From: Thiotrichaceae bacterium
Lineage (GTDB): Bacteria > Pseudomonadota > Gammaproteobacteria > Beggiatoales > Beggiatoaceae
DNA: 64,000 nucleotides
NCBI GenBank assembly: GCA_011391085.1
Contig: JAABRD010000005.1
Coordinates: 1-64,000, forward strand
Direction: 5' to 3'
Positions 6,776-61,354 of this stretch are shown piece by piece (positions within the stretch are counted from its first letter, which is position 1; each line of letters begins with the position of its first letter). The position numbers and the translations under genes were made by a program. The notes under the pieces were generated by a model. The model ran no database searches. It was not told the origin of the DNA and saw only the letters and a program-made list of their open reading frames with translations.

Positions 6776-6835
6776 CCAGGAGTTCAAAGCGCAGCTTTGC
6801 CAGGTCACGGACAAAGCTGCGCTTTGGACTCCTGG
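6776..6835. repeat. CCAGGAGT...ACTCCTGG palindrome
   Basis: A 60-bp imperfect palindrome with AAAGCGCAGCTTTG arms, a member of the GGAGTCC family. Confidence 0.7.
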
Positions 6836-18367: not shown

Positions 18368-18501
18368 AAGGTGGTAAAAAACGAAGTTTCGGAAAGCAAA
18401 CTTAGTTTCTGTGGTATCCATGCCACCATCGAGAAACTAAGTTTCTTCATAAGTTTCTTCAAGTGAATGTTGGTGGATACGCTTCGCTTAATCCACCCTA
18501 C
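18368..18501. repeat. AAACTTAGTTTC and GGTGGATACGC repeats
   Basis: Between uvrC and pgsA. Scattered GAAACTAAGTTTC arms lie at 18368-18460, then an inverted GGTGGATACGCTTCGC half-element at 18472-18501. Confidence 0.6.
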
Positions 18502-22944: not shown

Positions 22945-23871
22945 TTAACTCGATTCATGTTGTCGTTCTAACAACGCTTTCAAACGGGCCAATTCCATTT
23001 CAGCCGCTTGGGCCCGCCGTTCTGCTTCGAAACGCGCTTGTTCTGCGTCCTGGCGGGCGTGGGCTTCGATTTTGGCACATTGTTCCGCTTCGAAGCGTGC
23101 CTGTTCCGCATCCTGGCGGGCGTAAGTTTCCGCAGTAGCATGTTGTTCCGCTTCCAAACGGGCCTGTTCGGCATCCAGACGGGCTTGGACCTCCATTTGC
23201 GCCCGCTGTTCCGCCTCCCGTCGCGCCTGTGCCTCCAACAGTTGACTTTCCTGTCCCGTCAACACCAACTGTTTATCGGCAGATCGCCAACGTAACCAAT
23301 GTTCTGTGGCGCCTTTGTAATGTCCTTGCCACAAGGTCAACTCCAACCCCACCTTGGTCAACCGTTTATCGACTCGTTCAACGTAAGCGGTGCCATACAG
23401 TTCATACAACCGTAAAACCTGCTTACTCAAGCGATTGGTGGGGTCGAAAATCACATAGTAACACACGCCCAGACGGGCATACTCTCGTAACTTGGTAGTG
23501 GCCTCCCCACCCCGTTTATCCGAGACGATTTCAACTACGATGTCTGGCGGCTTCCCGTACTTCCACAGATAATAAGAATGGTTGGACTTTTTCAACAATC
23601 CTTCCGTCGGCGCCTGAACATCCAAACTGACTAACACATCTGGCACCAAGGGCGGTAAATGTTTGGCCGAAAATAATCCGACATTGGCCATTGCCAAAAA
23701 GGGACGGTCGGTCCAGTGGAAACTATAGAGAGAATCAGTCAACAAATGTTGTTGTTTTTCCGCAAAGAGACTGTCCAAGGGTTCATCATCCTCCGTGATT
23801 AAATGTTCCAGGTCGGCGTCAGCGTCCACCCGGAACGGTTTTAGAATAGGTAAAGAATGGGCTAGTGACAT
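22945..23871 (-). CDS. Uma2-family PD-(D/E)XK protein with coiled-coil tail, copy A
   Basis: A 308-residue protein from ATG 23871, supported by GGAGGTGAAT just upstream; the frame extends 35 codons further without family similarity. Residues about 50-185 form a Uma2-type nuclease fold with LVPDVLVSLDV and the catalytic-type PDIVVEIVSDKRGGE. From about 200, heptad-like AEQARLEAEQ repeats form a long charged coiled coil ending LARLKALLERQ. Uma2 proteins are multicopy, of unknown role and often cyanobacterial. It is a tandem duplicate of the next gene, about 90% alike outside the coil. Confidence 0.85.
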   Translation of the reverse strand: MSLAHSLPILKPFRVDADADLEHLITEDDEPLDSLFAEKQQHLLTDSLYSFHWTDRPFLAMANVGLFSAKHLPPLVPDVLVSLDVQAPTEGLLKKSNHSYYLWKYGKPPDIVVEIVSDKRGGEATTKLREYARLGVCYYVIFDPTNRLSKQVLRLYELYGTAYVERVDKRLTKVGLELTLWQGHYKGATEHWLRWRSADKQLVLTGQESQLLEAQARREAEQRAQMEVQARLDAEQARLEAEQHATAETYARQDAEQARFEAEQCAKIEAHARQDAEQARFEAERRAQAAEMELARLKALLERQHESS

Positions 23872-24023
23872 ATTCACCTCCAAAGGTTTTGAAAATGGGG
23901 TCGTGAGACCATCTGAGTGGTGACTCAGGATTGGCAGTCCTTTGAGGACGGCCAGTCCTGACATATTATCCACCATTCTCCGAGTTAAACAAAGTCTCGC
24001 GAACGCGATTGTTGAGTTTGTTA

Positions 24024-25370
24024 TTATCCCGGTGCTTCCTGACGCCCTAACAACGCCCTCAAGCGGGCGAGTTCGGCCTCGGCAGCTAATCGCGCCTCCG
24101 CTTCTGCTTCTGCCCGGCGTTCCGCCTCGAGGCGGGCGTGGGATTCCGCTTTGGCACGTTGTTCCGCCACGAGATGCGCCTGTTCCGCCTCGAGGCGGGC
24201 GTGGGATTCCATTTGGAACTGTTGTTCCGCCTCCCGTCGCGCCTGCGCCTCCAACTGGCGGCCCTGGGCTTCCGCTTGGGCCCGTTGTTCCGCCACGAGA
24301 TGCGCCTGTTCCGCGTTCTGGCGGGCGTGGGCCTCCGCGTGGGCACGTTGTTCCGCCACGAGATGCGCCTGTTCCGCGTTCTGGCGGCCCTGGGCTTCCG
24401 CTTGGGCCCGTTGTTCCGCCTCGATATGCGCCTGTTCCGCGTCCTGGCGGGCGTGGGATTCCATTTGGAACTGTTGTTCCGCCTCCCGTCGCGCCTGCGC
24501 CTCCAACTGGCGGCCCTGGGCTTCCGCTTGGGCCCGTTGTTCCGCCACGAGATGCGCCTGTTCCGCGTTCTGGCGGGCGTGGGATTCCGCTTGGGCCCGT
24601 TGTTCCGCCTCCTGGCGGGCGTAAGTTTCCGCAGTAGCATGTTGTTCCGCTTCCAAACGGGCTTGTTCGGCATCCAGGCGGGCTTGAACCTCCATTTGCG
24701 CCCGCTGTTCCGCTTCCTGTCGCGCCTGCGCCTCCAACAGTTGACTTTCCTGTCCCGTCAACACCAACTGTTTAGCCGTAGTCCGCCAACGTAACCAACA
24801 TTCTGTGGCGCCTTTGTAAGGTCCCTGCCACAAGGTCAATTCCAATCCGACTTTGGTCAACCGTTTATCAACTCGTTCCACGTAAGCGGTGCCATACAGT
24901 TCATACAACCGCAAGACCTGTTTGCCTAAGCGGTGAGTGGGGTCGAAAATCACATAGTAACACACGCCCAGACGGGCATACTCTCGTAACTTGGTAGTGG
25001 CCTCCCCACCCCGTTTATCCGAGACAATTTCAACTACGATGTCTGGCGGCTTCCCGTACTTCCACAGATAATAAGAATGGTTGGACTTTTTCAACAGTCC
25101 TTCCGTCGGGGCTTGAACATCTAAACTGACTAACACATCTGGCACCCAGGGTGGCAAATGTTTGTCAGAAAACAAGCCGACATTGGCCATTGCCAAAAAG
25201 GGACGGTCGGTCCAGTGGAAACTATAAAGAGAGTCAGTCAACAAATGTTGTTGTTTTTCGGCAAAGAGACTATCCAAGGGTTCATCATCCTCCGTGATTA
25301 AATCTTCCAGGTCGGCGTCATCGTCCTCCCGGAACGGTTTTAGAATAGGTAAAGAATGGGCTAGTGACAT
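24024..25370 (-). CDS. Uma2-family PD-(D/E)XK protein with extended coiled-coil tail, copy B
   Basis: A 448-residue paralogue of the preceding gene with the same GGAGGTGAAT leader at ATG 25370. The nuclease-fold part is nearly identical (WVPDVLVSLDV, PDIVVEIVSDKRGGE). The coiled coil is roughly 140 residues longer, built from shuffled modules such as AEQRAQAEAQGRQ, LEAQARREAEQQFQMESHAR and NAEQAHLVAEQRA. The longer tail probably arose by unequal recombination between the coding repeats at 24060-24700. Confidence 0.85.
   Translation of the reverse strand: MSLAHSLPILKPFREDDDADLEDLITEDDEPLDSLFAEKQQHLLTDSLYSFHWTDRPFLAMANVGLFSDKHLPPWVPDVLVSLDVQAPTEGLLKKSNHSYYLWKYGKPPDIVVEIVSDKRGGEATTKLREYARLGVCYYVIFDPTHRLGKQVLRLYELYGTAYVERVDKRLTKVGLELTLWQGPYKGATECWLRWRTTAKQLVLTGQESQLLEAQARQEAEQRAQMEVQARLDAEQARLEAEQHATAETYARQEAEQRAQAESHARQNAEQAHLVAEQRAQAEAQGRQLEAQARREAEQQFQMESHARQDAEQAHIEAEQRAQAEAQGRQNAEQAHLVAEQRAHAEAHARQNAEQAHLVAEQRAQAEAQGRQLEAQARREAEQQFQMESHARLEAEQAHLVAEQRAKAESHARLEAERRAEAEAEARLAAEAELARLRALLGRQEAPG
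24060..24700. repeat. Coding repeats of the Uma2 coiled coil
   Basis: Imperfect direct repeats built on TGTTCCGCC and GGCGGGCGTGGG modules. A block with TTGGAACTGTTGTTCCGCC occurs near 24212 and again near 24465, so about 250 bp appears to have been duplicated within the gene. Confidence 0.8.
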
Positions 25371-25440
25371 ATTCACCTCCAAAGGTTTTGAAATGAGTAT
25401 TAAGATTTGGTGGTGTTATAGTAGTAATGGTAAAGTTTTT

Positions 25441-37066: not shown

Positions 37067-37987
37067 TTAGGCTTCTGCCGTGGATAACGCCGTAATTTCT
37101 TCCACAGTCAGTCCCGTCGTCTCCACAATCAACGCTAACTCAAGTCTTTTAGCCAACATGCTGGCCGCGATAGCTTTGGCCTTTTGTTGTTCTCCCTCTT
37201 CGCGTCCCTCTTCGCGTCCCTCTTCGCGTCCCTCTTCGCGTCCCTCTTCGCGTCCCTCTTCGCGTCCCTCTTCGCGTCCCTCCAGTCGCCCCTCTTCAAT
37301 GGCCCCCCGTGCATCTTGGGCTTTCATCCCCCAATATTCATAAACATCCAATTCTCCAGGCGTCCAGCGGAAGCGATTGGCCACCTCATAAGCCGTGTGT
37401 AACGCAGGGTCATTCACATGATCTGGAATGACCTCCAAATCTTCCGCATGTTTAATAAAGTAAACCCATTTCTCCAACAGCGTTTGAAGCTGGTTGACCT
37501 CCTTGGTGAACTTGGGCAGTTCGAGGAAATGGAACTCAAAATCATTGAGGTTTTGTTTCTGAGTTTCGGTGTTGAGAATGAGATGATGAGTCAAGTAGTG
37601 TTCACCGTCAAATTCATTGAAATCCAAAATGCCAATGAAGATGACCGGTCGGAGTCTGGGATACTGGTGACCACGTTCTAATCGCGAGATATAACTCTTG
37701 GCCACGTAGTAGGCAAATCGTTTCCGAACGTAGGTGACTTTCTCCATTTGCATTTCGATGATGAAGGTGGTGCCACGTTTGTCTTTGGCCCGCACATCCA
37801 GCAACGAGGTCTTCAGGCGACTGAGTTTCGGCGAGAGATAGGGATTCAAGATATGCAAATCCACAATTTCTTTATCGCCCTGCCATCCTAACACGGCATT
37901 GAGAAACGAGATTAAAATTTCTTTCTTTTTCTGGTTGCCAAAAATTTTTTTGAAGGCAACGTCGTTTTTTGGGTTGACAAATTTCAT
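37067..37987 (-). CDS. Rpn family recombination-promoting nuclease/putative transposase
   Basis: A 306-residue Rpn/PD-(D/E)XK protein. It starts MKFVNPKNDVAFKKIFG, the family signature, and has the nuclease core LLDVRAKDKRGTTFIIEMQ with D64, E78 and Q80. Near the C-terminus are seven GREE tetrapeptides, followed by a helical tail. Rpn nucleases of E. coli promote RecA-independent recombination and some are anti-phage. It interrupts the chemotaxis cluster between the MCP and HEAT genes and is flanked by repeats on both sides, which suggests insertion. Confidence 0.92.
   Translation of the reverse strand: MKFVNPKNDVAFKKIFGNQKKKEILISFLNAVLGWQGDKEIVDLHILNPYLSPKLSRLKTSLLDVRAKDKRGTTFIIEMQMEKVTYVRKRFAYYVAKSYISRLERGHQYPRLRPVIFIGILDFNEFDGEHYLTHHLILNTETQKQNLNDFEFHFLELPKFTKEVNQLQTLLEKWVYFIKHAEDLEVIPDHVNDPALHTAYEVANRFRWTPGELDVYEYWGMKAQDARGAIEEGRLEGREEGREEGREEGREEGREEGREEGREEGEQQKAKAIAASMLAKRLELALIVETTGLTVEEITALSTAEA
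37196..37279. repeat. Seven exact 12-bp coding repeats
   Basis: CTCTTCGCGTCC is repeated seven times without change, encoding GREE on the minus strand in the Rpn-like gene. Confidence 0.97.
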
Positions 37988-40796: not shown

Positions 40797-41050
40797 GTTG
40801 GAGTACGGAATTGATTCCGCGTCATGGAACGGAATGAATTCCGGACTCCAACTTACGGAATAAATTCCGTACTCCAACTTACGGAATGAATTCCGTACTC
40901 CAACTTACGGAATGAATTCCGTACTCCAACTTACGGAATGAATTCCGTACTCCAACTTCTCGTGTTTGCCGTTGGAGTACGGAATTTATTCCGTGTCATG
41001 GAACGGAATGAATTCCGTACTCCAACTTCTCGTGTTTGCCGGACTCCAAC
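40797..41050. repeat. Array of GGAGTACGGAAT(T/G)(T/A)ATTCCG repeats
   Basis: About eight copies, mostly in one orientation as GGAATGAATTCCGTACTCC with two inverted copies, fill the whole cheA-cheW intergenic space. Two copies are joined by CTCGTGTTTGCCG, showing duplication of longer blocks. Confidence 0.9.
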
Positions 41051-43593: not shown

Positions 43594-44073
43594 CCGGACT
43601 AGAGGCTTTAGCCGCAATGCCATTAAGTTAAGGTAGGGTGGATTAAGCGTCAGCGTATCCACCATCCCCGAAACTGGTGGATACGCTAACGCTTAATCCA
43701 CCCTACATTGGATGGATATTCCTTAACTTAATGGCATTGAGGCTTTAGCCGGTGGTTGAGGCACGTCGCCGGCGGAAGCCTCTAGTCCAGCCGATGGAGA
43801 CCGGACTGGAGGCTTTAGCCGCAATGCCATTAAGTTAAGGAATCTCACACCAATGTAGGGTGGATTAAGCGAAGCGTATCCACCAGAGTTTCGACCGTGG
43901 TGGATACGCTAACGCTTAATCCACCCTACCTTAACTTAATGGCATTGAGGCTTTAGCCGGTGGTTGGGGCACGTCACCGGCTGAAGCCTCTAGTCCGGCC
44001 GATGGAGACCGGACTAGAGGCTTTCGCCGGTGGTTGGGGCACGTCACCGGCTGAAGCCTCTAGTCCGGCCAGG
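43594..44073. repeat. Nested palindromic repeats (three families) between cheY and the tandem array
   Basis: The 43516-44096 gap has no gene. Two composite blocks (43595-43790, 43802-43999) and one simple block (44009-44073) are present. In each composite block, an outer CTAGAGGCTTTAGCC palindrome is interrupted by arms CAATGCCATTAAGTTAAGG and CCTTAACTTAATGGCATTG. Those arms in turn enclose a GTAGGGTGGATTAAGCG palindrome. GAGGCTTTAGCC occurs on both sides of the inner insert, as expected for a target duplication. Confidence 0.85.
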
Positions 44074-44096: not shown

Positions 44097-44762
44097 TTAT
44101 AACGAATGCAGATGTTTAGAAACAATGTTTTTCAAAATTTTGAAAATGGTTTCGGTCTCGATTTTCTCTACATATTCTCTGGATGACTCTATACGCATCG
44201 TTGGCAAATCCGTGTCGATGCCTTCCACTTCAGCCCTCACAAACGTCCAACTGTCTGCAATCGTGTAGCACCCAAACATTTCTTGAGGGAAATGCGGGTC
44301 TGCTTCCCAATTTAAGTGGGCCGCGGCTAAGAGTTGGGCATAGAGTTGGAAAACGGGATTTTGACCTTCTACTCCTTTTTTGGTTTCAACTACCACCAAA
44401 AAGGGGGTTTCAATTCGTCCTGCCAAGGCTTCTCCTAAGACGCCATCTGCAATCCCCTCTAATTCAAATAGAGAATATCGTGCGGTCAAGGGCACTCCCG
44501 CCCACGCTTGAATTGCCCCTTGTTCGGCCAATACTAACAGTGGATAAATGCCTCTGGCCCAAATGGTGGCCTCATTCATTAAGTGAGTGGCACAGTAGCA
44601 TAAGTTCAATTTAAGCTGTTGTAATCGTTGTTGTTCCAACTCAGTCACAGAAACGGTTTCTACTTGCGTCCAGGAGTGGTTGGCTATTCTTCCTTCTTTG
44701 AGAGTCACGAGACGTTTTAAGTCTGCTAACGTGATACTGGAAAACGTGAATTTAGTCGTCAT
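44097..44762 (-). CDS. PD-(D/E)XK-like tandem paralogue T10 (last of array)
   Basis: A 221-residue member of the ten-copy family described at T1. ATG 44762 follows AGAGGAGAATCCC. The putative active site is IADGVLG...LVVVETKKG, with the helix NPVFQLYAQLLAA. Its start is only 14 bp after the T9 stop, the tightest spacing in the array, so the two are surely cotranscribed. Its tail (SKHLHSL) equals that of T8, while its N-terminal 30 residues match T9 (TLADLKRLVTLKEGRIANHSWTQVE), a mosaic pattern. Confidence 0.75.
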   Translation of the reverse strand: MTTKFTFSSITLADLKRLVTLKEGRIANHSWTQVETVSVTELEQQRLQQLKLNLCYCATHLMNEATIWARGIYPLLVLAEQGAIQAWAGVPLTARYSLFELEGIADGVLGEALAGRIETPFLVVVETKKGVEGQNPVFQLYAQLLAAAHLNWEADPHFPQEMFGCYTIADSWTFVRAEVEGIDTDLPTMRIESSREYVEKIETETIFKILKNIVSKHLHSL

Positions 44763-44776
44763 GGGATTCTCCTCTG

Positions 44777-45478
44777 TCAAGAACTGCCGGTGGTGACTGT
44801 TTCTGAATGGTTAGCGACAGCCTTGACATGTTTAGAAACAATGTTCTTCAAAATTTTGAAAATAGTATCGATCTCAGTCTTCTCGGTATATTCCCGTGAA
44901 CCTTCCACTCGCAAAGTAGGAGTATCTGTGTCAATTCCCTCCACTTCGGCCCGCATAAATTTCCAACTATCCGCAATCGTATAGCACCCAAAGATTTCTT
45001 GGATGGCCACCTGGTCCACTTCCCAGTTTAAGTGCGCGGCGGCTAAGAGTTGGGCGTACAATTGAAAAACGGGATTTTGACCGTCGACGCCCCGTTTGGT
45101 TTCTACAACTACCAAGTAAGGGGATTCGACTCGCCCTGCAATCACTTCTCCTAAGACACCGTCTGCCACTCCTTCTAACTCAAATTGGGGGTATTGGGCT
45201 TTCAACGGGACTCCTGCGCACGCTTGAATGTAGCCTTGTTCTGCCAACCTTAACAGTGGATAGATACCGCGGGCCCAAATCGTAGCTTCATTCATAAGAT
45301 GAGTGTCAAAATTGAGTAAACCGGCTTGAACAAGCTGTAAATGGGATTGTTCGATAGCTGTTAATGACAGAGATTCTACTTGCGTCCAGGAGTGGTTGGC
45401 TATTCTTCCTTCTTTAAGAGTCACGAGACGTTTTAAGTCTGCTAACGTGATACTGGAAAAAGTGAATTTAGTGGTCAT
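44777..45478 (-). CDS. PD-(D/E)XK-like tandem paralogue T9
   Basis: The longest copy, 233 residues, because the end runs on past SKHVKA by a dozen residues (VANHSETVTTGSS). Active-site motifs are VADGVLG and LVVVETKRG. Its N-terminus is nearly identical to T10. Upstream, the 287-bp gap to T8 is occupied by a nested palindromic repeat, so T9-T10 may be a separate transcription unit from T1-T8. Confidence 0.75.
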   Translation of the reverse strand: MTTKFTFSSITLADLKRLVTLKEGRIANHSWTQVESLSLTAIEQSHLQLVQAGLLNFDTHLMNEATIWARGIYPLLRLAEQGYIQACAGVPLKAQYPQFELEGVADGVLGEVIAGRVESPYLVVVETKRGVDGQNPVFQLYAQLLAAAHLNWEVDQVAIQEIFGCYTIADSWKFMRAEVEGIDTDTPTLRVEGSREYTEKTEIDTIFKILKNIVSKHVKAVANHSETVTTGSS

Positions 45479-45547
45479 GAGATTCTCCTCTGAGTGGTTC
45501 TGTTCAGGAGTCCAAAGCATGAAAAATAGAAAATGGAAAATGGGTAC

Positions 45548-45745
45548 CGGACTAGAGGCTTTAGCCGCAATGCCATTAAGTTAAGGTAGGGTGGATTAAG
45601 CGTTAGCGTATCCACCACGGTCGAAACTCTGGTGGATACGCTTCGCTTAATCCACCCTACATTGGTGTGAGATTCCTTAACTTAATGGCATTGAGGCTTT
45701 AGCCGGTGGTTGGGGCACGTCACCAGCGGAAGCCTCTAGTCCGGC
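45548..45745. repeat. Nested palindromic repeat between T8 and T9
   Basis: The same three-layer structure as at 43802-43999. Arms CAATGCCATTAAGTTAAGG (45568-45586) and CCTTAACTTAATGGCATTG (45675-45693) enclose an 88-bp core. That core is the exact reverse complement of the core at 43841-43928, while the outer repeat keeps the same orientation. Confidence 0.9.
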
Positions 45746-45765
45746 CTGGTGTTTTTCATTTTCCA

Positions 45766-46434
45766 TTATAATGAATGCAGATGTTTAGAAACAATGTTCT
45801 TTAAAATTTTGAAGATGGTAAACGCCTCGATTTTTTCCATGTATTCTCTGGAATATTCAACTTGGAGTGTGGGTAAATCCGTGTCAATTCCAGAGACTTC
45901 CGCCCTGACAAAGGTCCAGACATCAGCCACCGTATAGCAACCAAAGATTTCTTGAAGTGAATGGTGGTCTTGTTCCCAATTTAAATGGGCCGCGGCCAAA
46001 AGTTGGGCATAGAGTTGAAAGACGGGATTTTGACCGTCTATTCCCCGTTTCGTTTCCACTATGACTAAATAAGGAGATTTAACCCGACTGGCAACCACCT
46101 TTCCTAACACTCCATCAGCAATGCCTTCAAGGTCGAATTTAACATAGTGGGCCTGTAATGGCACCTGTGCCAACACGCCTAAAGAGGATTTTTGAGTGGC
46201 CAATGATAACAGTGGATAAATTGCGGCAGACCAGATAGTGGCTTCATTCACCAGCAAGGTGGAGGTTTTCAGCAGTTGTAATTTGAGACCACGTAAATAT
46301 CGTCTTTCTTCTTTGTCAAGGAGGAGAGAATCTGTTTGCGTCCATTCATATTCACCAATATTGCCTTCTTGCAGATTCACAAACTGGGTTAAATTTTCCA
46401 ACGTGATGTTAGAAAAAGTGAATTTCGTGGTCAT
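45766..46434 (-). CDS. PD-(D/E)XK-like tandem paralogue T8
   Basis: 222 residues from ATG 46434, preceded by AGAGGAACATACG. The N-terminal 34 residues (TLENLTQFVNLQEGNIGEYEWTQTDSL) are identical to T6. The middle (SAAIYPLLSLATQKS) matches T5 and T1, and the tail matches T10. Motifs are IADGVLG and LVIVETKRG. Confidence 0.75.
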   Translation of the reverse strand: MTTKFTFSNITLENLTQFVNLQEGNIGEYEWTQTDSLLLDKEERRYLRGLKLQLLKTSTLLVNEATIWSAAIYPLLSLATQKSSLGVLAQVPLQAHYVKFDLEGIADGVLGKVVASRVKSPYLVIVETKRGIDGQNPVFQLYAQLLAAAHLNWEQDHHSLQEIFGCYTVADVWTFVRAEVSGIDTDLPTLQVEYSREYMEKIEAFTIFKILKNIVSKHLHSL

Positions 46435-46464
46435 CGTATGTTCCTCTCGGTGGTTATGGTAGTC

Positions 46465-46498
46465 AGACACGGCCGGGATTTGACAGACCAGCGTGTCT
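46465..46498. repeat. Spacer hairpin of the array (T7/T8)
   Basis: AGACACG and CGTGTCT arms around GCCGGGATTTGACAGACCAG. The same hairpin lies at 47204-47237 and 47943-47976, each about 30 bp before a paralogue start. Confidence 0.8.
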
Positions 46499-46507
46499 CT
46501 ACAGTGG

Positions 46508-47173
46508 TTAAGGGGTGGCAACATGTTTGGAAACAATGTACTTCAGAATTTTGAAAATGGTTTCGGCCTCCGTTTTTTCCATGTATTCTCTGGATAATTC
46601 AATCCGCAACGTCGGCAACTCCGCGTCGATGCCTTCCACTTCGGCCCTCACAAAGGTCCAAATATCGGCAATCGTGTAACACCCAAAGATTTCTTGGAGG
46701 GAGTGAGAGTCTGCTTCCCAATTTAAGTGGGCCGCCGCCAACAGTTGGGCGTAGAGTTGGAAGACGGGATTTTGACCTTCGACGCCTTTTTTGGTTTCGA
46801 CCATGACCAAGTAGGGTAGTTCTAACCGCCCCCCAACGCTTTTTCCCAGTACGCCGTCGGCAATTCCCTCCAGTTCAAAGTGAACATATTGGGCTTGCAA
46901 GGGGATTTGGGCCCACGCTTGAATCGGTCCCTGTTCGGCTAACATCAACAGCGGATAAATGGCCCTGGACCAAATCGTGGCTTCATTTAATAGATGCGTT
47001 GGAATCTGGAATAAATGTGACGTGATTCCTTGTAAAAAGGGTCTCTCGGTCTCGGTCACCAGGAGAGAGTTCACTTGCGTCCATTCATAATCGCCAAGAT
47101 TTTCCTCGTGCAGTTTAACCAAACGTTTTAGGTCTGCTAAAGTGATGTTAGAAAAAGTGAATTTAGTTGTCAT
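46508..47173 (-). CDS. PD-(D/E)XK-like tandem paralogue T7
   Basis: 221 residues from ATG 47173. N-terminus TLADLKRLVKLHEENLGDYEWTQVNSL. The middle LNEATIWSRAIYPLLMLAEQ resembles T3. Motifs are IADGVLG and LVMVETKKG. It begins exactly 739 bp downstream of the T6 start, with an identical spacer, direct evidence of tandem duplication of a gene-plus-leader unit. Confidence 0.75.
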   Translation of the reverse strand: MTTKFTFSNITLADLKRLVKLHEENLGDYEWTQVNSLLVTETERPFLQGITSHLFQIPTHLLNEATIWSRAIYPLLMLAEQGPIQAWAQIPLQAQYVHFELEGIADGVLGKSVGGRLELPYLVMVETKKGVEGQNPVFQLYAQLLAAAHLNWEADSHSLQEIFGCYTIADIWTFVRAEVEGIDAELPTLRIELSREYMEKTEAETIFKILKYIVSKHVATP

Positions 47174-47203
47174 CGTATGTTCCTCTCGGTGGTTATGGTA
47201 GTC

Positions 47204-47237
47204 AGACACGGCCGGGATTTGACAGACCAGCGTGTCT
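47204..47237. repeat. Spacer hairpin of the array (T6/T7)
   Basis: A copy of the AGACACG...CGTGTCT hairpin, identical in sequence to that at 46465. Confidence 0.8.
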
Positions 47238-47246
47238 CTAAAGTAG

Positions 47247-47912
47247 TTAAGGAGTGGCGACCTGTTTAGAAACAATGTTCTTCAGAATTTTGAAAATGGT
47301 TTCGGCCTCATACTTTTCCCCATATTCTTGCGAATGTTTTACTCGCAACGTCGGCAGGTCGGTATCGATTTCGGAGACTTCCGCCCTGACAAAGGTCCAA
47401 ATATCAGCCACCGTGTAGCAACCAAAGATTTCTTGGGGCAAGCAGTGGTCTTGTTCCCAATTTAAGTGGGCCGCAGCTAACAATTCGGCGTAGAGTTGGA
47501 CGACAGGATTTTGACCTTCCACACCGCGTTTGGTTTCAACCATGACTAAATAGGGTGACTTGACACGGCCTAACGCGATTTTTCCAAACACACCGTCAGC
47601 AATCCCTTCTAATTCAAATTTAGCATATTGTGCTTGCAATGGCACCTGTGACCAGACTTGGATGGGGTCTTGTTCTGCTAACACTAGCAACGGGTAAATG
47701 ACTCTGGCCCAGAGAGTGGCTTCATTGACCAAAAGTGTCGGCGTTTTGCGCAAACGTGCCGTAAGTTCTTGGAGAGATTGTGTTTCCGAGTTTGTCACTG
47801 GTAGAGAGTCTGTTTGCGTCCATTCATATTCACCAATATTGCCTTCTTGTAGATTCACAAACTGGGTTAAATTTTCCAACGTGATGTTAGAAAATGTGAA
47901 TTTAGTAGTCAT
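47247..47912 (-). CDS. PD-(D/E)XK-like tandem paralogue T6
   Basis: 221 residues from ATG 47912. The central 130 residues are almost identical to T2 (TETQ/SETQ SLQELTARLRKTPTLLVNEATLWARVIYPLL), whereas the first 34 match T8 and the tail EYGEKYEAETIFKILK matches T3. It is thus the clearest mosaic. Motifs are IADGVFG and LVMVETKRG, with Glu in place of Gln in the helix QLYAELLAA. Confidence 0.75.
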   Translation of the reverse strand: MTTKFTFSNITLENLTQFVNLQEGNIGEYEWTQTDSLPVTNSETQSLQELTARLRKTPTLLVNEATLWARVIYPLLVLAEQDPIQVWSQVPLQAQYAKFELEGIADGVFGKIALGRVKSPYLVMVETKRGVEGQNPVVQLYAELLAAAHLNWEQDHCLPQEIFGCYTVADIWTFVRAEVSEIDTDLPTLRVKHSQEYGEKYEAETIFKILKNIVSKQVATP

Positions 47913-47942
47913 CATATATTCCTCTCGGTGGTTATGGTAGTC

Positions 47943-47976
47943 AGACACGGTCGGGATTTGACAGACCAGCGTGTCT
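47943..47976. repeat. Spacer hairpin of the array (T5/T6)
   Basis: AGACACGG...CGTGTCT hairpin with one base change from the other copies. Confidence 0.78.
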
Positions 47977-47985
47977 CTACAGTGG

Positions 47986-48651
47986 TTAAGTAATGACGAC
48001 ATGTTTAGAAACAATATTTTTCAAAATTTTGAAAATGGTAAACGCCTCCGTTTTTTCCATGTATTCTCTGGAAAATTCAACTTGGAATGTCGGCAAATCG
48101 GTGTCAATTCCAGAGACTTCCGCCCTGACAAACGTCCAAACGTCAGCCACCGTGTAACAGCCAAAGATTTCTTGTGGCAAGCGATGGTCTTGTTCCCAAT
48201 TTAAGTGGGCGGCTGCCAACAATTCGGCATAGAGTTGAATGACGGGATTTTGACATTCTACTCCTCTTTTGGTTTCCACTATGACTAAATAGGGAGATTT
48301 GACACGGCTTGCAACCACCTTTCCTAACACCCCGTCAGCGATACCTTCAATGTCGAAGTTAACATAGCGGGCCCGTAATGGTACTTGAACCCATACGCGA
48401 ATAGATTTTTGAGTGGCCAATGACAACAGTGGGTAAATCGCCGCCGACCAAACGGTGGCTTCATTCAAGAGTAGCGTGTGAATTTTGCGCAAGTCGGTCA
48501 TGAGTTCTTGTAAATGTTGATTTTCCAGGTCTGACAATGGCAAAGAGTCTATCTTGGTCCAATCATGGTCATCAATCTCTCCTTCTTGCAGATTCACAAA
48601 CTGGGTTAACTCTTCCAAGGTGATATTAGAAAACGTGAATCTGGTGGACAT
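47986..48651 (-). CDS. PD-(D/E)XK-like tandem paralogue T5
   Basis: 221 residues from ATG 48651 (MSTRFTFSNITLEELTQFV). The central block SIRVW(V)QVPLRARYVNFDIEGI is shared with T1. Motifs are IADGVLG and LVIVETKRG; Cys replaces the usual Gly in GVECQNP. The leader holds a GGAGTCC-family repeat instead of the AGACACG hairpin. Confidence 0.75.
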   Translation of the reverse strand: MSTRFTFSNITLEELTQFVNLQEGEIDDHDWTKIDSLPLSDLENQHLQELMTDLRKIHTLLLNEATVWSAAIYPLLSLATQKSIRVWVQVPLRARYVNFDIEGIADGVLGKVVASRVKSPYLVIVETKRGVECQNPVIQLYAELLAAAHLNWEQDHRLPQEIFGCYTVADVWTFVRAEVSGIDTDLPTFQVEFSREYMEKTEAFTIFKILKNIVSKHVVIT

Positions 48652-48671
48652 CGTATGTTCCTCTCGGTGGT

Positions 48672-48777
48672 TATGTTCAGGAGTCCAAAGCGCAGCTTTG
48701 TCCGGACGGTTTGCCAGGAATCCAAAGCGTCGCTTTGAACTGCGGCCTGACAAAGCGACGCTGTTTCCTCCTGGGTC
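48672..48777. repeat. GGAGTCCAAAGCG repeats between T4 and T5
   Basis: AAAGCGCAGCTTTG and AAAGCGTCGCTTTG arms with CAGGA ends. A near copy occupies the T3/T4 spacer at 49480-49571, so gene plus spacer were duplicated together with a 797-798-bp period. Confidence 0.8.
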
Positions 48778-48782
48778 TGTGG

Positions 48783-49448
48783 TTAAGGGGTGGCAACATG
48801 TTTAGAAACAATGTTCTTCAAAATTTTGAAAATCTTCTCGGCTTCATATTTTTCTCCCAATTCTCGCGAATACTCAACTTGCAAGAGAGGAGTGTCAGCC
48901 TCGAAACCTTCCACTTGGGCACGCATAAACTTCCAACTATCCGCAATGGTGTAACAACCAAAGATTTCTTGAGAGTAATGACCATTTTTTTTCCAATTCA
49001 AGAAAGCGGACGCTAATAATTGTGCATATAGTTGAAATACGGGATTTTGACTTTCCACTCCCCGTTTCGCTTCCACGACGACGACATAAGGAGATTCCAG
49101 TCGACCTGCAACGTTTTTCCCGAGTACTCCATCCACAATGCCTTCTAATTCAAACCGAGTATATTGCGCTTGTAACGATACTTGCGACCAGGCTTGAATA
49201 TTGCGTTGTTCGGCCAGCAATAAGATTGGGTAAATCCCTCTTGCCCAAAGCGTCGCCTCATTCATTAAGTGGGTATCTGAATTGATCAAGTCGGACTTAA
49301 TATATTGCAAGCGTTGTTGTTCGCGGTCCGTCAAAGGAATGTTTTCCACTTGTGTCCATTCATAGTCGTCAATCTCTCCTTCTTGCAGATTCACTATGCC
49401 GGTTAAATTTTCCAACGTGAAGTTAGAAAACGTGAATTTAGTGGTCAT
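48783..49448 (-). CDS. PD-(D/E)XK-like tandem paralogue T4
   Basis: 221 residues from ATG 49448, the most divergent copy (TLENLTGIVNLQEGEIDDYEWTQVENIPL). Motifs are IVDGVLG and VVVVEAKRG, with Ala for Thr between the Glu and Lys. The helix reads NPVFQLYAQLLAS, and EIFGCYTIADSWKFMRAQVEGFE follows. Divergence with intact acidic/lysine residues argues for selection on the active site. Confidence 0.75.
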   Translation of the reverse strand: MTTKFTFSNFTLENLTGIVNLQEGEIDDYEWTQVENIPLTDREQQRLQYIKSDLINSDTHLMNEATLWARGIYPILLLAEQRNIQAWSQVSLQAQYTRFELEGIVDGVLGKNVAGRLESPYVVVVEAKRGVESQNPVFQLYAQLLASAFLNWKKNGHYSQEIFGCYTIADSWKFMRAQVEGFEADTPLLQVEYSRELGEKYEAEKIFKILKNIVSKHVATP

Positions 49449-49479
49449 CGGCTTTTCCTCTCGGTGGATTATGTTTAGG

Positions 49480-49571
49480 AGTCCAAAGCGTCGCTTTGTC
49501 CGGACGGTTTGCCAGGAATCCAAAGCATCGCTTTGAACCGCGGCCTGACAAAGCTACGCTTTTTCCTCCTG
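49480..49571. repeat. GGAGTCCAAAGCG repeats between T3 and T4
   Basis: A near-identical copy of the spacer at 48672-48777. Confidence 0.8.
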
Positions 49572-49580
49572 GGTCTGTGG

Positions 49581-50246
49581 TTAAGGAGTGGCGACATGTT
49601 TAGAAACAATGTTCTTCAAAATTTTGAAAATGGTTTCCGCTTCATATTTTTCCCCATATTCCCGTGAACCTTCAATTCGCAAAGTGGGAATATCCGCGTC
49701 TATGTCTGTCACTTGTGCTTTCACAAACGTCCAACAGTCAGCAATCGTGTAGCATCCAAAAATTTCTTGGGGAGAGAGGTGGTCTTGTTCCCAATTTAAG
49801 TGGGCGGCCGCTAACAATTGGGCGTAGAGTTGGAAGACGGGATTTTGATTTTCCACGCCTTTCTTAGTTTCGACGACAACGAGATAGGGAGACTTGAGTC
49901 TGCCTAAGACACATTTTCCTAGTACCCCGTCGGCAATTCCTTCTAATTCAAAGTGAGTATAGTGCGCTTTGAGTGACACTTGTGCCCATGCTTGAATAGA
50001 TTCTTGTTCTGCTAACATCAATAGCGGATAAATGGCCCTGGCCCAGACCGTAGCTTCATTCACGAGATGCGTCGAAATCTTGAACAAATGTGACATGATC
50101 CCTTGTAATAATTGTCTCTCCGCATCTGTCACAATGAAAGAGTCCACTTGCGTCCATTCATATTCGCCAAGATTTTCCTCTTGCAGATTCACAAACTGGG
50201 TTAAATTTTCCAACGTGATACTAGAAAATGTGAATTTCGTGGACAT
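49581..50246 (-). CDS. PD-(D/E)XK-like tandem paralogue T3
   Basis: 221 residues from ATG 50246. TLENLTQFVNLQEENLGEYEWTQVDS at the N-terminus, IADGVLG and LVVVETKKG at the putative active site, and tail EYGEKYEAETIFKILKNIV as in T6. Its leader contains another GGAGTCC-family palindrome (50285-50348). Confidence 0.75.
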   Translation of the reverse strand: MSTKFTFSSITLENLTQFVNLQEENLGEYEWTQVDSFIVTDAERQLLQGIMSHLFKISTHLVNEATVWARAIYPLLMLAEQESIQAWAQVSLKAHYTHFELEGIADGVLGKCVLGRLKSPYLVVVETKKGVENQNPVFQLYAQLLAAAHLNWEQDHLSPQEIFGCYTIADCWTFVKAQVTDIDADIPTLRIEGSREYGEKYEAETIFKILKNIVSKHVATP

Positions 50247-50362
50247 CGTATGTTCCTCTTGGTGGTTATAGTGGTAGTGTAGCTTTGCCAGGAGTCCAAA
50301 GCGCAGCTTTGAACCGTTGCCTGGCAAAGCGACGCTTTGGACTCCTGGTAAAGAGTCCTGTG

Positions 50363-51031
50363 TTAAGTTGCGGTTTTGACATGTTTAGACACAATCTTCT
50401 TCAAAATTTTGAAAATGGTTTCAGCTTCAGTTTTCTCCGTATATTCTCTGGAAGGTTCAATCCGTAAAGTAGGCAAGTCGGTATCGATTTCGGAGACTTC
50501 GGCCCTGACAAAGGTCCAAATATCAGCCACCGTGTAGCAACCAAAGATTTCTTGGGGCACGCGGTGGTCTTGTTCCCAATTTAAGTGGGCGGCAGCTAAC
50601 AATTCGGCGTAGAGTTGGACGACAGGATTTTGACCTTCCACACCGCGTTTGGTTTCGACCAGGACTAAATAGGGTGACTTGACGCGGCCTATCACCATTT
50701 TTCCAAAGACACCGTCGGCGATTCCTTCTAATTCAAATTTAGCATATTGTGCTTGCAATGGCACCTGTGACCAGACTTGGATGGAGTCTTGTTCTGCTAA
50801 CACTAACAACGGGTAAATGACTCTGGCCCAGAGAGTGGCTTCATTGACCAAGAGTGTCGGCGTTTTGCGCAAACGTGCCGTAAGTTCTTGGAGAGATTGT
50901 GTTTCGGTGTTTGTCACGGGCAAGGAGTCTATTTGGGTCCATTCGTAATCTTGGATCGATTCCTCTTGCAGATTCACAAATCTGGTTAAATCTGCTAACG
51001 TGATGTTAGAAAATGTGAATTTAGTAGTCAT
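50363..51031 (-). CDS. PD-(D/E)XK-like tandem paralogue T2
   Basis: 222 residues; ATG 51031 and 51034 are adjacent and the former aligns with the family. The central region is almost identical to T6, but both ends differ (TLADLTRFVNLQEESIQDYEWTQ; SKHVKTAT). Motifs are IADGVFG and LVLVETKRG. Confidence 0.75.
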   Translation of the reverse strand: MTTKFTFSNITLADLTRFVNLQEESIQDYEWTQIDSLPVTNTETQSLQELTARLRKTPTLLVNEATLWARVIYPLLVLAEQDSIQVWSQVPLQAQYAKFELEGIADGVFGKMVIGRVKSPYLVLVETKRGVEGQNPVVQLYAELLAAAHLNWEQDHRVPQEIFGCYTVADIWTFVRAEVSEIDTDLPTLRIEPSREYTEKTEAETIFKILKKIVSKHVKTAT

Positions 51032-51067
51032 CATATATTCCTCTCGGTGGTTATGGTAGTCAAAAAC

Positions 51068-51090
51068 CGCCGGGATTTGAAAGACCGGCG
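51068..51090. repeat. Spacer hairpin of the array (T1/T2), variant
   Basis: CGCCGG and CCGGCG arms around GATTTGAAAGA. Compared with the other spacers, both arms have changed together so pairing is retained. Confidence 0.7.
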
Positions 51091-51103
51091 TGTCTCGGAG
51101 TCG

Positions 51104-51769
51104 TTAAGTGGTAGCAACCTGTTTAGAAACAATATTCTTCAAAATTTTGAAAATGGTCACCGCTTCCGTTTTCTCCATGTATTCTCTGGAGAACTCAATC
51201 CGCATGGTCGGCAACTCCGTGTCGATACCTTCCACTTCAGCCCTCACAAACGTCCAAATATCGGCAATCGTGTAGCAACCAAAAATTTCTTGCGGGGAGT
51301 GAGAGTCAACTTCCCAATTCAAATGGGCCGCGGCCAATAACTGGGCGTAGAGTTGAACAACAGGATTTTGACCTTCGACGCCCTTTTTGGTTTCGACTAC
51401 GACCACGTATGGAGTTTTGAGTCGACCACCAACCGTTTTCCCCAGCACCCCGTCAACAATCCCTTCGATATCGAAATTGACATATTTGGCCTGCAAAGGG
51501 ACTTGGGCCCAGACACGAATGGATTTTTGGGTTGCCAATGATAACAGAGGATAAATGGCTGCCGACCAGATGGTGGCCTCATTTATCAAATGGGTAGGAG
51601 TTTTGAGTAATCGTGATTGGAGACTTTGTAAATCTCGTTGTTCTTCGGTTTCCACGGGCACAGAGTCTATGTTGGTCCATTCATAGTCGTCAATATCTCC
51701 TTCTTGCAGATTCACTATCTTGGATAACTCTTCCAATGTGATGCTAGAAAATGTGAATTTTTTGGTCAT
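51104..51769 (-). CDS. PD-(D/E)XK-like tandem paralogue T1 (first of array)
   Basis: First in transcription order, 221 residues from ATG 51769. The family, which I do not recognise by name, has four parts. They are an N-terminus KFTFSSITLEEL, a variable segment (about 20-60), a helix with conserved Glu (NEATIW, E64), and a nuclease-like core. The core is EGIVDGVLG (D106), then VVVVETKKG (E126, K128), then NPVVQLYAQLL (Q139). That D...ExK...Q order fits the PD-(D/E)XK fold. A conserved EIFGCYTIAD.WTFVRAEV and a C-terminal TIFKILKNIVSK helix follow. There is no signal peptide or membrane helix. All ten copies run codirectionally over 7.7 kb. Confidence 0.75.
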   Translation of the reverse strand: MTKKFTFSSITLEELSKIVNLQEGDIDDYEWTNIDSVPVETEEQRDLQSLQSRLLKTPTHLINEATIWSAAIYPLLSLATQKSIRVWAQVPLQAKYVNFDIEGIVDGVLGKTVGGRLKTPYVVVVETKKGVEGQNPVVQLYAQLLAAAHLNWEVDSHSPQEIFGCYTIADIWTFVRAEVEGIDTELPTMRIEFSREYMEKTEAVTIFKILKNIVSKQVATT

Positions 51770-51898: not shown

Positions 51899-51972
51899 GT
51901 AGGGTGGATTAAGCGGTAGCGTATCCACCCTTCCCGACACTGGTGGATACGCTACCGCTTAATCCACCCTAC
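51899..51972. repeat. GTAGGGTGGATTAAGCGG palindrome upstream of the array
   Basis: A 74-bp palindrome 130 bp upstream of T1, preceded by short GATGGTGATGATG repeats. The gap 51770-52019 should hold the array promoter; no confident -35/-10 pair can be called. Confidence 0.8.
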
Positions 51973-52019: not shown

Positions 52020-52748
52020 TCACCGTTCCCATCTCACCCCAAACACTTTCCAAATATTCTCCTCCGTACACATCGTCGCAAACGTTCCACATCCAAACAT
52101 TCGCCCTTGGTGAACCAACACCACTTGGTCTGCATAACGTTTGGCCAAATTTAAATCATGGGTGGACAACGCTACCGTTTTACCTTCTTGAGTTAATTCT
52201 TTAAGTAATTGCAACAATCCTAAAGCATGGGCAATATCAAGATTTGCGGTCGGTTCATCCAATAAGATAATATTGGCTTGCGTGGCCAAACTACGTGCTA
52301 TCACTACCCGTTGCCGTTCGCCACCGGACAACTGCGTGACCAAGCGATGTGCTAAATGAATCACATCCGTCCGTTTCATCGCCTCCTCCACGCATCTTTC
52401 ATCTTGGTCCGTCTCCCGTTGCCAACGCCCTACGTATGGATGACGCCCCATTTTCACAATTTCTTTGGTTGTGAAAGGAAAATTGATCTGCGTCGATTGC
52501 GGCACAAACGCGACTTGTTGGGCGAGTTCGCGACGTTGGAAGCGAGACAGGTCGCGTCCATTCAAAGTCACTTTCCCCACCGTCGGTTGCCACAGTCCTC
52601 CTAACAAACGTAATACAGTCGTTTTGCCAGCCCCATTGGGTCCCATAAACACCGTCAGTTGGCCCGGTTGTAACGTGAGACTGGCATCTTGCATCAACCA
52701 ACGTTTTTCAATTTCCACGCCTGCTTGGTGCAAGCCCAATCTGTTCAT
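52020..52748 (-). CDS. ABC transporter ATP-binding protein (FecE/BtuD/HmuV type)
   Basis: A 242-residue ABC ATPase: Walker A GPNGAGKTT, Q-loop FVPQ, signature LSGGERQR, Walker B IILLDEPTANLD and H-loop STHDLNLA. Its ATG overlaps the permease stop by four bases (ATGA), so translation is coupled. It powers uptake of an iron complex, haem or cobalamin; which one is not decidable from sequence alone. Confidence 0.92.
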   Translation of the reverse strand: MNRLGLHQAGVEIEKRWLMQDASLTLQPGQLTVFMGPNGAGKTTVLRLLGGLWQPTVGKVTLNGRDLSRFQRRELAQQVAFVPQSTQINFPFTTKEIVKMGRHPYVGRWQRETDQDERCVEEAMKRTDVIHLAHRLVTQLSGGERQRVVIARSLATQANIILLDEPTANLDIAHALGLLQLLKELTQEGKTVALSTHDLNLAKRYADQVVLVHQGRMFGCGTFATMCTEENIWKVFGVRWER

Positions 52749-53782
52749 AAATAACTGAGGTCTCGACGATAACGGAGTAACAAATAAATAAAAAAAGGTG
52801 TACCAAACATCGCAGTGACAATGCCTAACCGAATTTCTTCAGGTCGGTGAATCGTGCGGGCTAATAAATCCGCTAAGATCAGAAAAGTGGCCCCCATCAA
52901 AGCACTGGCTGGAAGAAGATAACGATGAGTGGGACCTAACAGGAGACGGACGATATGAGGTATTATCAGTCCCACAAATCCCACCGCACCACTGACTGCC
53001 ACTGCTGTACCTGTGAGAAGGGCGGTACTCATCAAAATTCTACGTTTCACTCGTTCCACATCGACCCCTAATGATTGGGCCGTCTCTTGACCTAACAAGA
53101 GTATATCTAACTCGCGAGAATAAAACAAGGCTATCAGACTACCCAATATTACCCCAGGCAAAGTCATTCCAACGTGTGACCAGGTGCGACTGTCGAGTCC
53201 ACCCATTAACCAAAATATCATTTCTCTAGCGATTTCATAGTCTATCCAGGAAAAGGTAATGACTAACGCCGTCAACGCCCCTAGCAACGCATTGATAGCC
53301 ACGCCAGCTAACAGTAACGTGGCCACCGGCACACTGCCATTTTGTTGGGCTAACCGATACACGCCAAAGAGGGCCAGAAAGGCGCCTAGGATAGCACAAA
53401 GAGGCAGATAAAATATAGAATAAGACGCCAATCCTGTCGCCAAAGCAATCACTGCACCTAATACGCCGCCGCTACTGGTACCAATGATGTCAGGAGACGC
53501 CAGCGGATTTTGAAACAATCCTTGCATTTGCGCCCCTGCCAGGGCCAGCGAAGCACCGACTAAGGCGGCAACAATAACTCGTGGGATACGAATCCACCAA
53601 AGAATCACGAGATACGATTCGTTGAAATCATGTACATTCACCCAACCTGTTGGTAACAGTTGAACTGCTAAGATATGCAAGAGGACCTGAATGGGAATCT
53701 CTGTGCTACCCAGGGCCATCCCTAGCAAACTGGCCAAAATCAGCAAGGTGGTGAGGAGAAAAAAGTAAATGGTATGATTCAT
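52745..53782 (-). CDS. FecCD/BtuC-type ABC permease
   Basis: A 345-residue integral membrane protein with nine or ten hydrophobic helices. FecCD-family motifs include GASLALAGAQMQGLFQNPLASPDIIGTSSGGVLGA, ALGVDVERVKRR (cytoplasmic coupling segment) and GAVGFVGLIIPHIVRLLLGPTHRYLLP. It forms the membrane channel for the ATPase downstream and the binding protein upstream. It is separated from the latter by a degenerate MITE. Confidence 0.93.
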   Translation of the reverse strand: MNHTIYFFLLTTLLILASLLGMALGSTEIPIQVLLHILAVQLLPTGWVNVHDFNESYLVILWWIRIPRVIVAALVGASLALAGAQMQGLFQNPLASPDIIGTSSGGVLGAVIALATGLASYSIFYLPLCAILGAFLALFGVYRLAQQNGSVPVATLLLAGVAINALLGALTALVITFSWIDYEIAREMIFWLMGGLDSRTWSHVGMTLPGVILGSLIALFYSRELDILLLGQETAQSLGVDVERVKRRILMSTALLTGTAVAVSGAVGFVGLIIPHIVRLLLGPTHRYLLPASALMGATFLILADLLARTIHRPEEIRLGIVTAMFGTPFFIYLLLRYRRDLSYL

Positions 53783-60938: not shown

Positions 60939-60957
60939 GGGTATCGTTTCGATACCG
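60939..60957. repeat. GGTATCGTTTCGATACC palindrome
   Basis: A 7-bp-arm palindrome immediately before the 22-bp tandem repeats. The gap 60532-61354 otherwise holds a CTAGAGGC half-element (60735-60755) and a pair of AATCTGTGGT inverted arms (60808-60877). Confidence 0.6.
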
Positions 60958-60966
60958 CGTTTGTAC

Positions 60967-61076
60967 CGACTTGGGTCAGCGTTTGTATCGACTTGGGTCA
61001 GCGTTTGTATCGACTTGGGTCAGCGTTTGTATCGACTTGGGTCAGCGTTTGTATCGACTTGGGTCAGCCGCTGACC
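60967..61076. repeat. Five tandem 22-bp repeats
   Basis: The unit starts CGACTTGGGTCAGCG and ends TTTGTAT; four are exact and the fifth leads into the palindrome GGGTCAGCCGCTGACCC. There are no spacers. Two turns of helix per unit places every copy on the same DNA face. It lies about 280 bp upstream of the glycosyltransferase. Confidence 0.92.
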
Positions 61077-61354
61077 CGACTCGCCTTAAAGCGTACCCCG
61101 TCACCAATGAGGATTCATCAGGGTTTTCGAGTTTGGCCTTAATGAGAAATTATTGGGGGTTAAAGACTGGAGTAAAAGTCATTTAAATCTGGTGTTTTAC
61201 ACCAGTTTTTAATGATATGATAGTCTGTTTAATTTTATAGCCACGTAGGGTGGGCAATGGGTTTATCGTTGCCCACCAGTTGAGGACGGTGGGCAATAAA
61301 ACACTTTAGAGGCGGAAGCCGTGAGATATTAACTATAACCATTTATATTATTTT

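Follow-up and report, generated by a model that had tools for sequence, protein, structure and literature searches.

At a single chromosomal locus of a Thiotrichaceae bacterium (family Beggiatoaceae), ten intact paralogous genes, denoted T1 to T10, follow one another on the minus strand at 44097-51769 of the DNA analysed here (64,000 nucleotides from the start of contig JAABRD010000005.1, assembly GCA_011391085.1; hereafter the window). We consider it probable that they form an array of stand-alone PD-(D/E)XK proteins that was locally duplicated, recombines, is held under selection and acts against foreign or aberrant DNA, and that is Uma2-like without being Uma2. An initial annotation of the window had described ten codirectional paralogues of 221-233 residues with no gene between them, and our survey of open reading frames (ORFs) bears this out. 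Every gene has an ATG start and a GAGAGGA-type ribosome-binding site, and none of the ten has an in-frame stop. No other plausible gene lies between T1 and T10; the only further ORFs are antisense and within coding sequences, and the spacers of 14-287 nucleotides contain none. The ten genes are:

51104-51769, minus strand: T1, 221 amino acids (ORF; PADLOC PD_DExK match, E 1.6e-10)
50363-51031, minus strand: T2, 222 amino acids (ORF)
49581-50246, minus strand: T3, 221 amino acids (ORF)
48783-49448, minus strand: T4, 221 amino acids, longest end branch in the array (ORF; tree)
47986-48651, minus strand: T5, 221 amino acids (ORF)
47247-47912, minus strand: T6, 221 amino acids, mosaic (ORF; recombination analysis)
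46508-47173, minus strand: T7, 221 amino acids, mosaic (ORF; recombination analysis)
45766-46434, minus strand: T8, 222 amino acids (ORF)
44777-45478, minus strand: T9, 233 amino acids, longer C-terminus (ORF)
44097-44762, minus strand: T10, 221 amino acids (ORF; PADLOC PD_DExK match, E 2.4e-8)

Start-to-start distances, annotated before as 738-739 bp for four neighbouring pairs, were recomputed as 738 (T1-T2), 739 (T5-T6), 739 (T6-T7) and 739 (T7-T8); the remaining ones are 785, 798, 797, 956 and 716. Identity to T1 ranges from 63 to 73% across the array and reaches at most 88% between any two copies. These values, with synonymous divergence (dS) mostly above 1, rule out a misassembly or near-identical repeat. 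T4 had been called clearly divergent: its terminal branch in the tree is indeed longer than that of any other array copy, yet at 63% identity it is no farther from T1 than T9 is. The base composition of the array is that of its surroundings. A btuCD-like transporter (52020-53782) borders it on one side and cheY/cheA-like genes (43515 downwards) on the other, all on the array's strand. A promoter and terminator scan gave no excess over shuffled sequences, and Rfam and tRNA searches of the window gave no matches.

The motifs D-G-V-(L/F)-G, VE(T/A)K(K/R)G and QLYA(Q/E)LL are present in all ten copies, which confirms the retention of the Asp, ExK and Gln residues noticed earlier. Our alignment adds a fifth conserved acid, E64, in a helix ahead of the core; across the 36 homologues aligned, E64, D106, E126-x-K128 and Q139 never vary. 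The order E...D...ExK...Q is the PD-(D/E)XK signature, including the usual auxiliary Glu and Gln. The sole library match was the PADLOC profile PDLC01472 'PD_DExK' (1.6e-10 for T1, 2.4e-8 for T10), which represents a broader family, and a profile of the array subfamily aligned to the broader-family profile with an hhalign probability of 98.5% over 199 columns. Pfam gave no meaningful match for any of the 36 members and NCBIfam none for the array family; Uma2, PDDEXK_2 and other Pfam or NCBIfam families were thus rejected as its identity, for want of a profile match.

Two AlphaFold models were built on a shallow, 14-sequence alignment (predicted local distance difference test, pLDDT, 43 and 52). 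In both, the elements follow the expected order, a helix followed by three to five strands, then a long helix and further strands, and the second, of a Prochloron homologue (predicted template modelling score, pTM, 0.47), has the element order H-E-E-E-H-E (H, helix; E, strand). A Foldseek search of the PDB with this second model placed DrdV first (E 1.4e-3, probability 1.00) and the nucleases SPARDA, MGME1 and NucC lower, and a large share of its matches in a viral library were PD-(D/E)XK nucleases. The PADLOC profile, the hhalign score, the invariant residues, the element order and the nuclease-rich fold hits of this low-confidence model together support the PD-(D/E)XK-like assignment; we found neither a structure lacking the alpha-beta-beta-beta-alpha-beta core nor a ratio of non-synonymous to synonymous substitution (dN/dS) near 1 with catalytic residues free to change. 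The T proteins are single-domain, with a conserved N-terminus at the start. They look stand-alone and very likely have the PD-(D/E)XK fold.

Beyond the array, the Beggiatoaceae host genome (5.77 Mb, 99.9% complete) proved to hold dispersed copies: 19 full-length members of the subfamily comprise the ten of the array and nine elsewhere, one tandem pair among the nine. Searching the genome with the PDLC01472 model gave 40 places, about 20 of which are core members of the broader sister family. A tree built from 49 homologues groups the ten array copies in one clade (99/90) and places the dispersed copies of the host genome outside it. Clear orthologues in the sister species, or counterparts across Thioploca genomes, exist for several dispersed copies; the array copies have no orthologues. 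In two Thioploca-type genomes (G003 and G027) the btuCD region is free of the array, and in the sister species G001 a contig ends near btuD, leaving the array site unseen, and the array clade includes none of the copies sampled from G001. Given the single clade, the missing orthologues and the array-free btuCD regions of G003 and G027, the simplest account is that the array was amplified in place within this Beggiatoaceae lineage, one ancestral gene having been duplicated locally many times over; an alternative history, loss of the array from G001, is compatible with these data.

The array copies are recombinational mosaics with homogenised spacers. The pairwise homoplasy index (PHI) lies 14 standard deviations below the permutation mean (z = -14), and exchange tracts between T6 and T8, T9 and T10, and T3 and T8 survive Bonferroni correction. 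The first ~90 nucleotides of T6 are T8-like (96%) and the remainder T2-like, whereas T7 is T3-like in its first half and T1/T10-like in its second. Near-identical spacers of 72-73 nucleotides separate genes that differ at about one quarter to one third of their residues, and this spacer type occurs nowhere else in the genome. The 63-73% identity to T1, the single clade and this unique spacer together exclude a chance origin of the array. Comparison of the spacers identified the following on the minus strand:

51032-51103, minus strand: 72-nucleotide spacer T1/T2, array-specific type
47913-47985, minus strand: 73-nucleotide spacer T5/T6, 96% identical to T6/T7 spacer
47174-47246, minus strand: 73-nucleotide spacer T6/T7
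46435-46507, minus strand: 73-nucleotide spacer T7/T8, 99% identical to T6/T7 spacer

A leader hairpin in the 72-73-nucleotide spacer was no better than in shuffled sequences (z -0.85 to -1.69), and we therefore do not claim the spacer as an RNA element. Two dispersed palindrome families have spread into the longer spacers; they flank the array as well and recur at other places in the window. One, GTAGGGTGGATTAAGCG...CGCTTAATCCACCCTAC, has 16 matches against 0.01 expected (for example at 18485, 31580, 36882, 43633, 45586 and 51899); the other, CAAAGCG..GCTTTG, has 25 against 0.11 expected (for example at 6785, 17230, 48686, 49484 and 50297) and lies in three array spacers. In and around the array these are, with no strand assigned:

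51899-51972: palindrome (repetitive extragenic palindromic, REP-like) upstream of T1
50247-50362: spacer T2/T3 with dispersed CAAAGCG..GCTTTG palindromes
49449-49580: spacer T3/T4 with CAAAGCG..GCTTTG palindromes
48652-48782: spacer T4/T5 with CAAAGCG..GCTTTG palindromes
45479-45765: spacer T8/T9 with GTAGGGTGGATTAAGCG palindrome
43630-43932: two palindromes of the GTAGGGTGGATTAAGCG family, downstream of T10

Selection on the copies was estimated by NG86, whose values are rough near saturation. Over all 45 array pairs dN/dS is 0.10-0.23 and averages 0.16, and dS mostly exceeds 1, indicating that the ten copies are old and maintained; decay of the array, against which the initial annotation had argued from motif retention, is ruled out by these ratios and the intact frames. 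Fragmented copies in several relatives demonstrate that members of the family do decay, while the ten of the array are intact. Dispersed orthologues of similar dS give 0.055-0.105, so that the array copies show about twice that ratio; in the other matched controls, a dispersed duplicate pair (L015/L016) gave 0.079 and other tandem pairs 0.19-0.21. The doubled ratio is relaxation or mild diversification following duplication, not positive selection. Within the proteins, residues 1-62, before the core, have a median dN/dS of 0.26 versus 0.115 for the core (63-150).

Database records with relatives of T1 come from Thioploca, Candidatus Thiomargarita and the Guaymas Basin, and the gene occurs in many genera of family-level relatives. 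At E <= 1e-20, single copies of the subfamily were found in four of 292 cyanobacteria, and none of 398 other sampled Pseudomonadota has it. Of 25 Beggiatoaceae genomes searched for the broader family, 22 carry it, with as many as 31 copies; so do 33 of 117 cyanobacteria, with as many as 20, but among 248 further Pseudomonadota sampled a single one has it. Phage records and viral contigs contained neither subfamily nor broader family. Plasmids gave no subfamily match; the broader family is on 20 of them, the named ones cyanobacterial. A phage, plasmid or viral origin of the subfamily was rejected on this absence of matches. The longest other clusters that we noticed have four genes, mixed or of broader-family PD_DExK type, in G001 (C380, 3249-8618) and G003 (L091, 5507-8199).

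To characterise the neighbourhood, we surveyed 110 proteins adjoining subfamily members in 36 loci. Among the families listed, none recurs apart from Uma2 (4), generic methyltransferases (3) and broader PD_DExK (3). No partner, immunity or delivery gene was found. In two cyanobacteria (L096/L097, 5564-8093) the single copy has a large conserved gene on one side and, on the other, the gene for Raf1 (Rubisco accumulation factor) followed by a Uma2 gene, a synteny conserved between the two.

Taken together, we suggest that each T protein is probably a metal-dependent DNA nuclease that works without a dedicated partner. The array would be a group of diversifying paralogues whose variability is highest in the N-terminal ~60 residues, ahead of the catalytic core, and sequence exchange between copies would keep mixing these variable N-terminal parts with a conserved core. 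Selection would retain the paralogues for the benefit of cleaving some class of foreign or aberrant DNA, a role in DNA conflict that we infer. Several results weigh against this proposal. Among the neighbour families listed (25 of 132 Pfam) there is no recurrent defence or toxin-antitoxin partner, antitoxin or DNA methyltransferase. A PDB sequence search found no solved relative, and both structure models are of low confidence. The Foldseek search with the first model (pLDDT 43) returned no PD-(D/E)XK structure from the PDB, and that with the Prochloron-homologue model returned no match below 1e-3 and ranked mitoribosome chains, which are not nucleases, high as well. Finally, the variable positions in the array are largely those of the whole family, so that array-specific diversification is not demonstrated.

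A different explanation, which we regard as rather unlikely, is that the nuclease gene propagates itself, its nicking or cutting of DNA stimulating recombination and its own duplication, with any benefit to the cell secondary, as Feder and Bujnicki proposed for Uma2 on equal grounds (PMC551604). The patchy proliferation of the broader family in cyanobacteria and Beggiatoaceae and almost nowhere else in Pseudomonadota, the tandem pairs elsewhere and the recombination within the array are consistent with it. However, phages and viral contigs lack the family and plasmids the subfamily, the array is limited to one locus, and the strong constraint on dispersed orthologues in the sister species suggests a useful function. 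An extension of our main proposal is speculative, and we give it little weight: the locus would serve recombination-driven diversification, as a bank of partnerless nucleases whose N-terminal recognition regions are reshuffled to change the DNA attacked. If true, multicellular filamentous sulfur bacteria would have a new kind of innate DNA discrimination, one that needs no partner.

PD-(D/E)XK domains are common in toxin and conflict-effector systems, and some dispersed copies have VapC- and HigA-like genes nearby. That the array is a toxin-antitoxin, contact-dependent or polymorphic-toxin system, in which immunity accompanies a toxin module or conflict effector, is nevertheless very unlikely: no partner gene alternates with the T genes, whose spacers are free of ORFs, no neighbour recurs among the 110 adjoining proteins, and the single-domain proteins have no delivery domain. 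Uma2 has been called a likely solo toxin (PMC2701414), which would fit a toxin module. A role as accessory nucleases of CRISPR or restriction systems, slightly less probable again, would follow from the label of the best library match ('PD_DExK, CAS associated') and from the top fold match, a restriction-modification enzyme. Among the neighbour families listed (25 of 132 Pfam families for the methyltransferase survey), however, none is a cas gene, a single CARF-type protein is present, and no DNA methyltransferase recurs; beside the array we noticed neither kind of gene in a window that was not systematically annotated. The PD-(D/E)XK fold has non-nuclease members, but a non-catalytic or RNA-directed function is the least credible of all, every active-site residue, including Gln139 and Glu64, being invariant.

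Other PD-(D/E)XK families are encoded in the same window, among them a PDDEXK_2 (PF12784) protein at 37067-37987 (minus strand, E 1.5e-54) and, at 12468-14261 (minus strand), an AAA-ATPase_like protein (PF09820) carrying PDDEXK_9 as its C-terminal domain. Two Uma2-domain (PF05685) proteins with long repeat-rich coding stretches lie at 22945-23976 and 24024-25382 (minus strand); tandem repeats at 23019-23195 and 24119-24686 fall inside them. Further tandem repeats have units of 12 bp x 24 (22246-22533), 26 bp x 5 (40829-40958) and 22 bp x 5 (60957-61081). The genome of a relative is very plastic and repeat-rich (PMC4853749).

We found no description of the present family or array in the open-access literature, and no tested function for it or for Uma2, which together fill cyanobacterial and Beggiatoaceae genomes. 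The present family at least is maintained by selection and does not only accumulate, and ten intact, selected, recombining paralogues at one site offer a tractable object whose copies can be expressed or assayed singly. Beggiatoaceae are an isolated proteobacterial home of this cyanobacterial-type gene family, and genetic exchange between the two groups has been published (PMC5108060).

Among known systems, the array subfamily is homologous to PDLC01472 'PD_DExK' over most of its length, with the same E...D...ExK...Q order, an IFGCYT.AD.W-type segment and a distribution in Beggiatoaceae and cyanobacteria. It differs in its scores (27-46 bits versus 140-180 for core members), its extended variable N-terminal ~60 residues and its far narrower distribution, and the CRISPR-cas association in the PDLC01472 label was not seen among the families listed for its 110 neighbours. 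PDLC01472 is itself uncharacterised, its members being 'hypothetical protein' where annotated on cyanobacterial plasmids. PDDEXK_2 (Rpn/YhgA-like) is likewise a PD-(D/E)XK family abundant in these genomes, but it shows no profile match or sequence-detectable relation to the array family. The nuclease domain of DrdV gave the best PDB fold match (E 1.4e-3), and the HsdR N-terminal domain (HSDR_N) matched one broader-family member weakly (E 0.14); the array proteins, however, lack helicase, specificity and methyltransferase parts and any sequence-level match. The closest parallel in behaviour, not in membership, is Uma2/COG4636, whose stand-alone PD-(D/E)XK proteins proliferate patchily in cyanobacteria with random neighbourhoods and tandem paralogues and were proposed to be a selfish element (PMC551604), later being described as forming cassettes of paralogues (PMC2701414). 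The PF05685 profile matches none of 36 array-family members while matching their true Uma2 neighbours, and the array family has the canonical E126-x-K128 in place of the displaced catalytic lysine of Uma2. In 2005 at most four consecutive Uma2 genes were reported (PMC551604), compared with ten here; the array is a longer version of a habit of gene multiplication already known from cyanobacteria.

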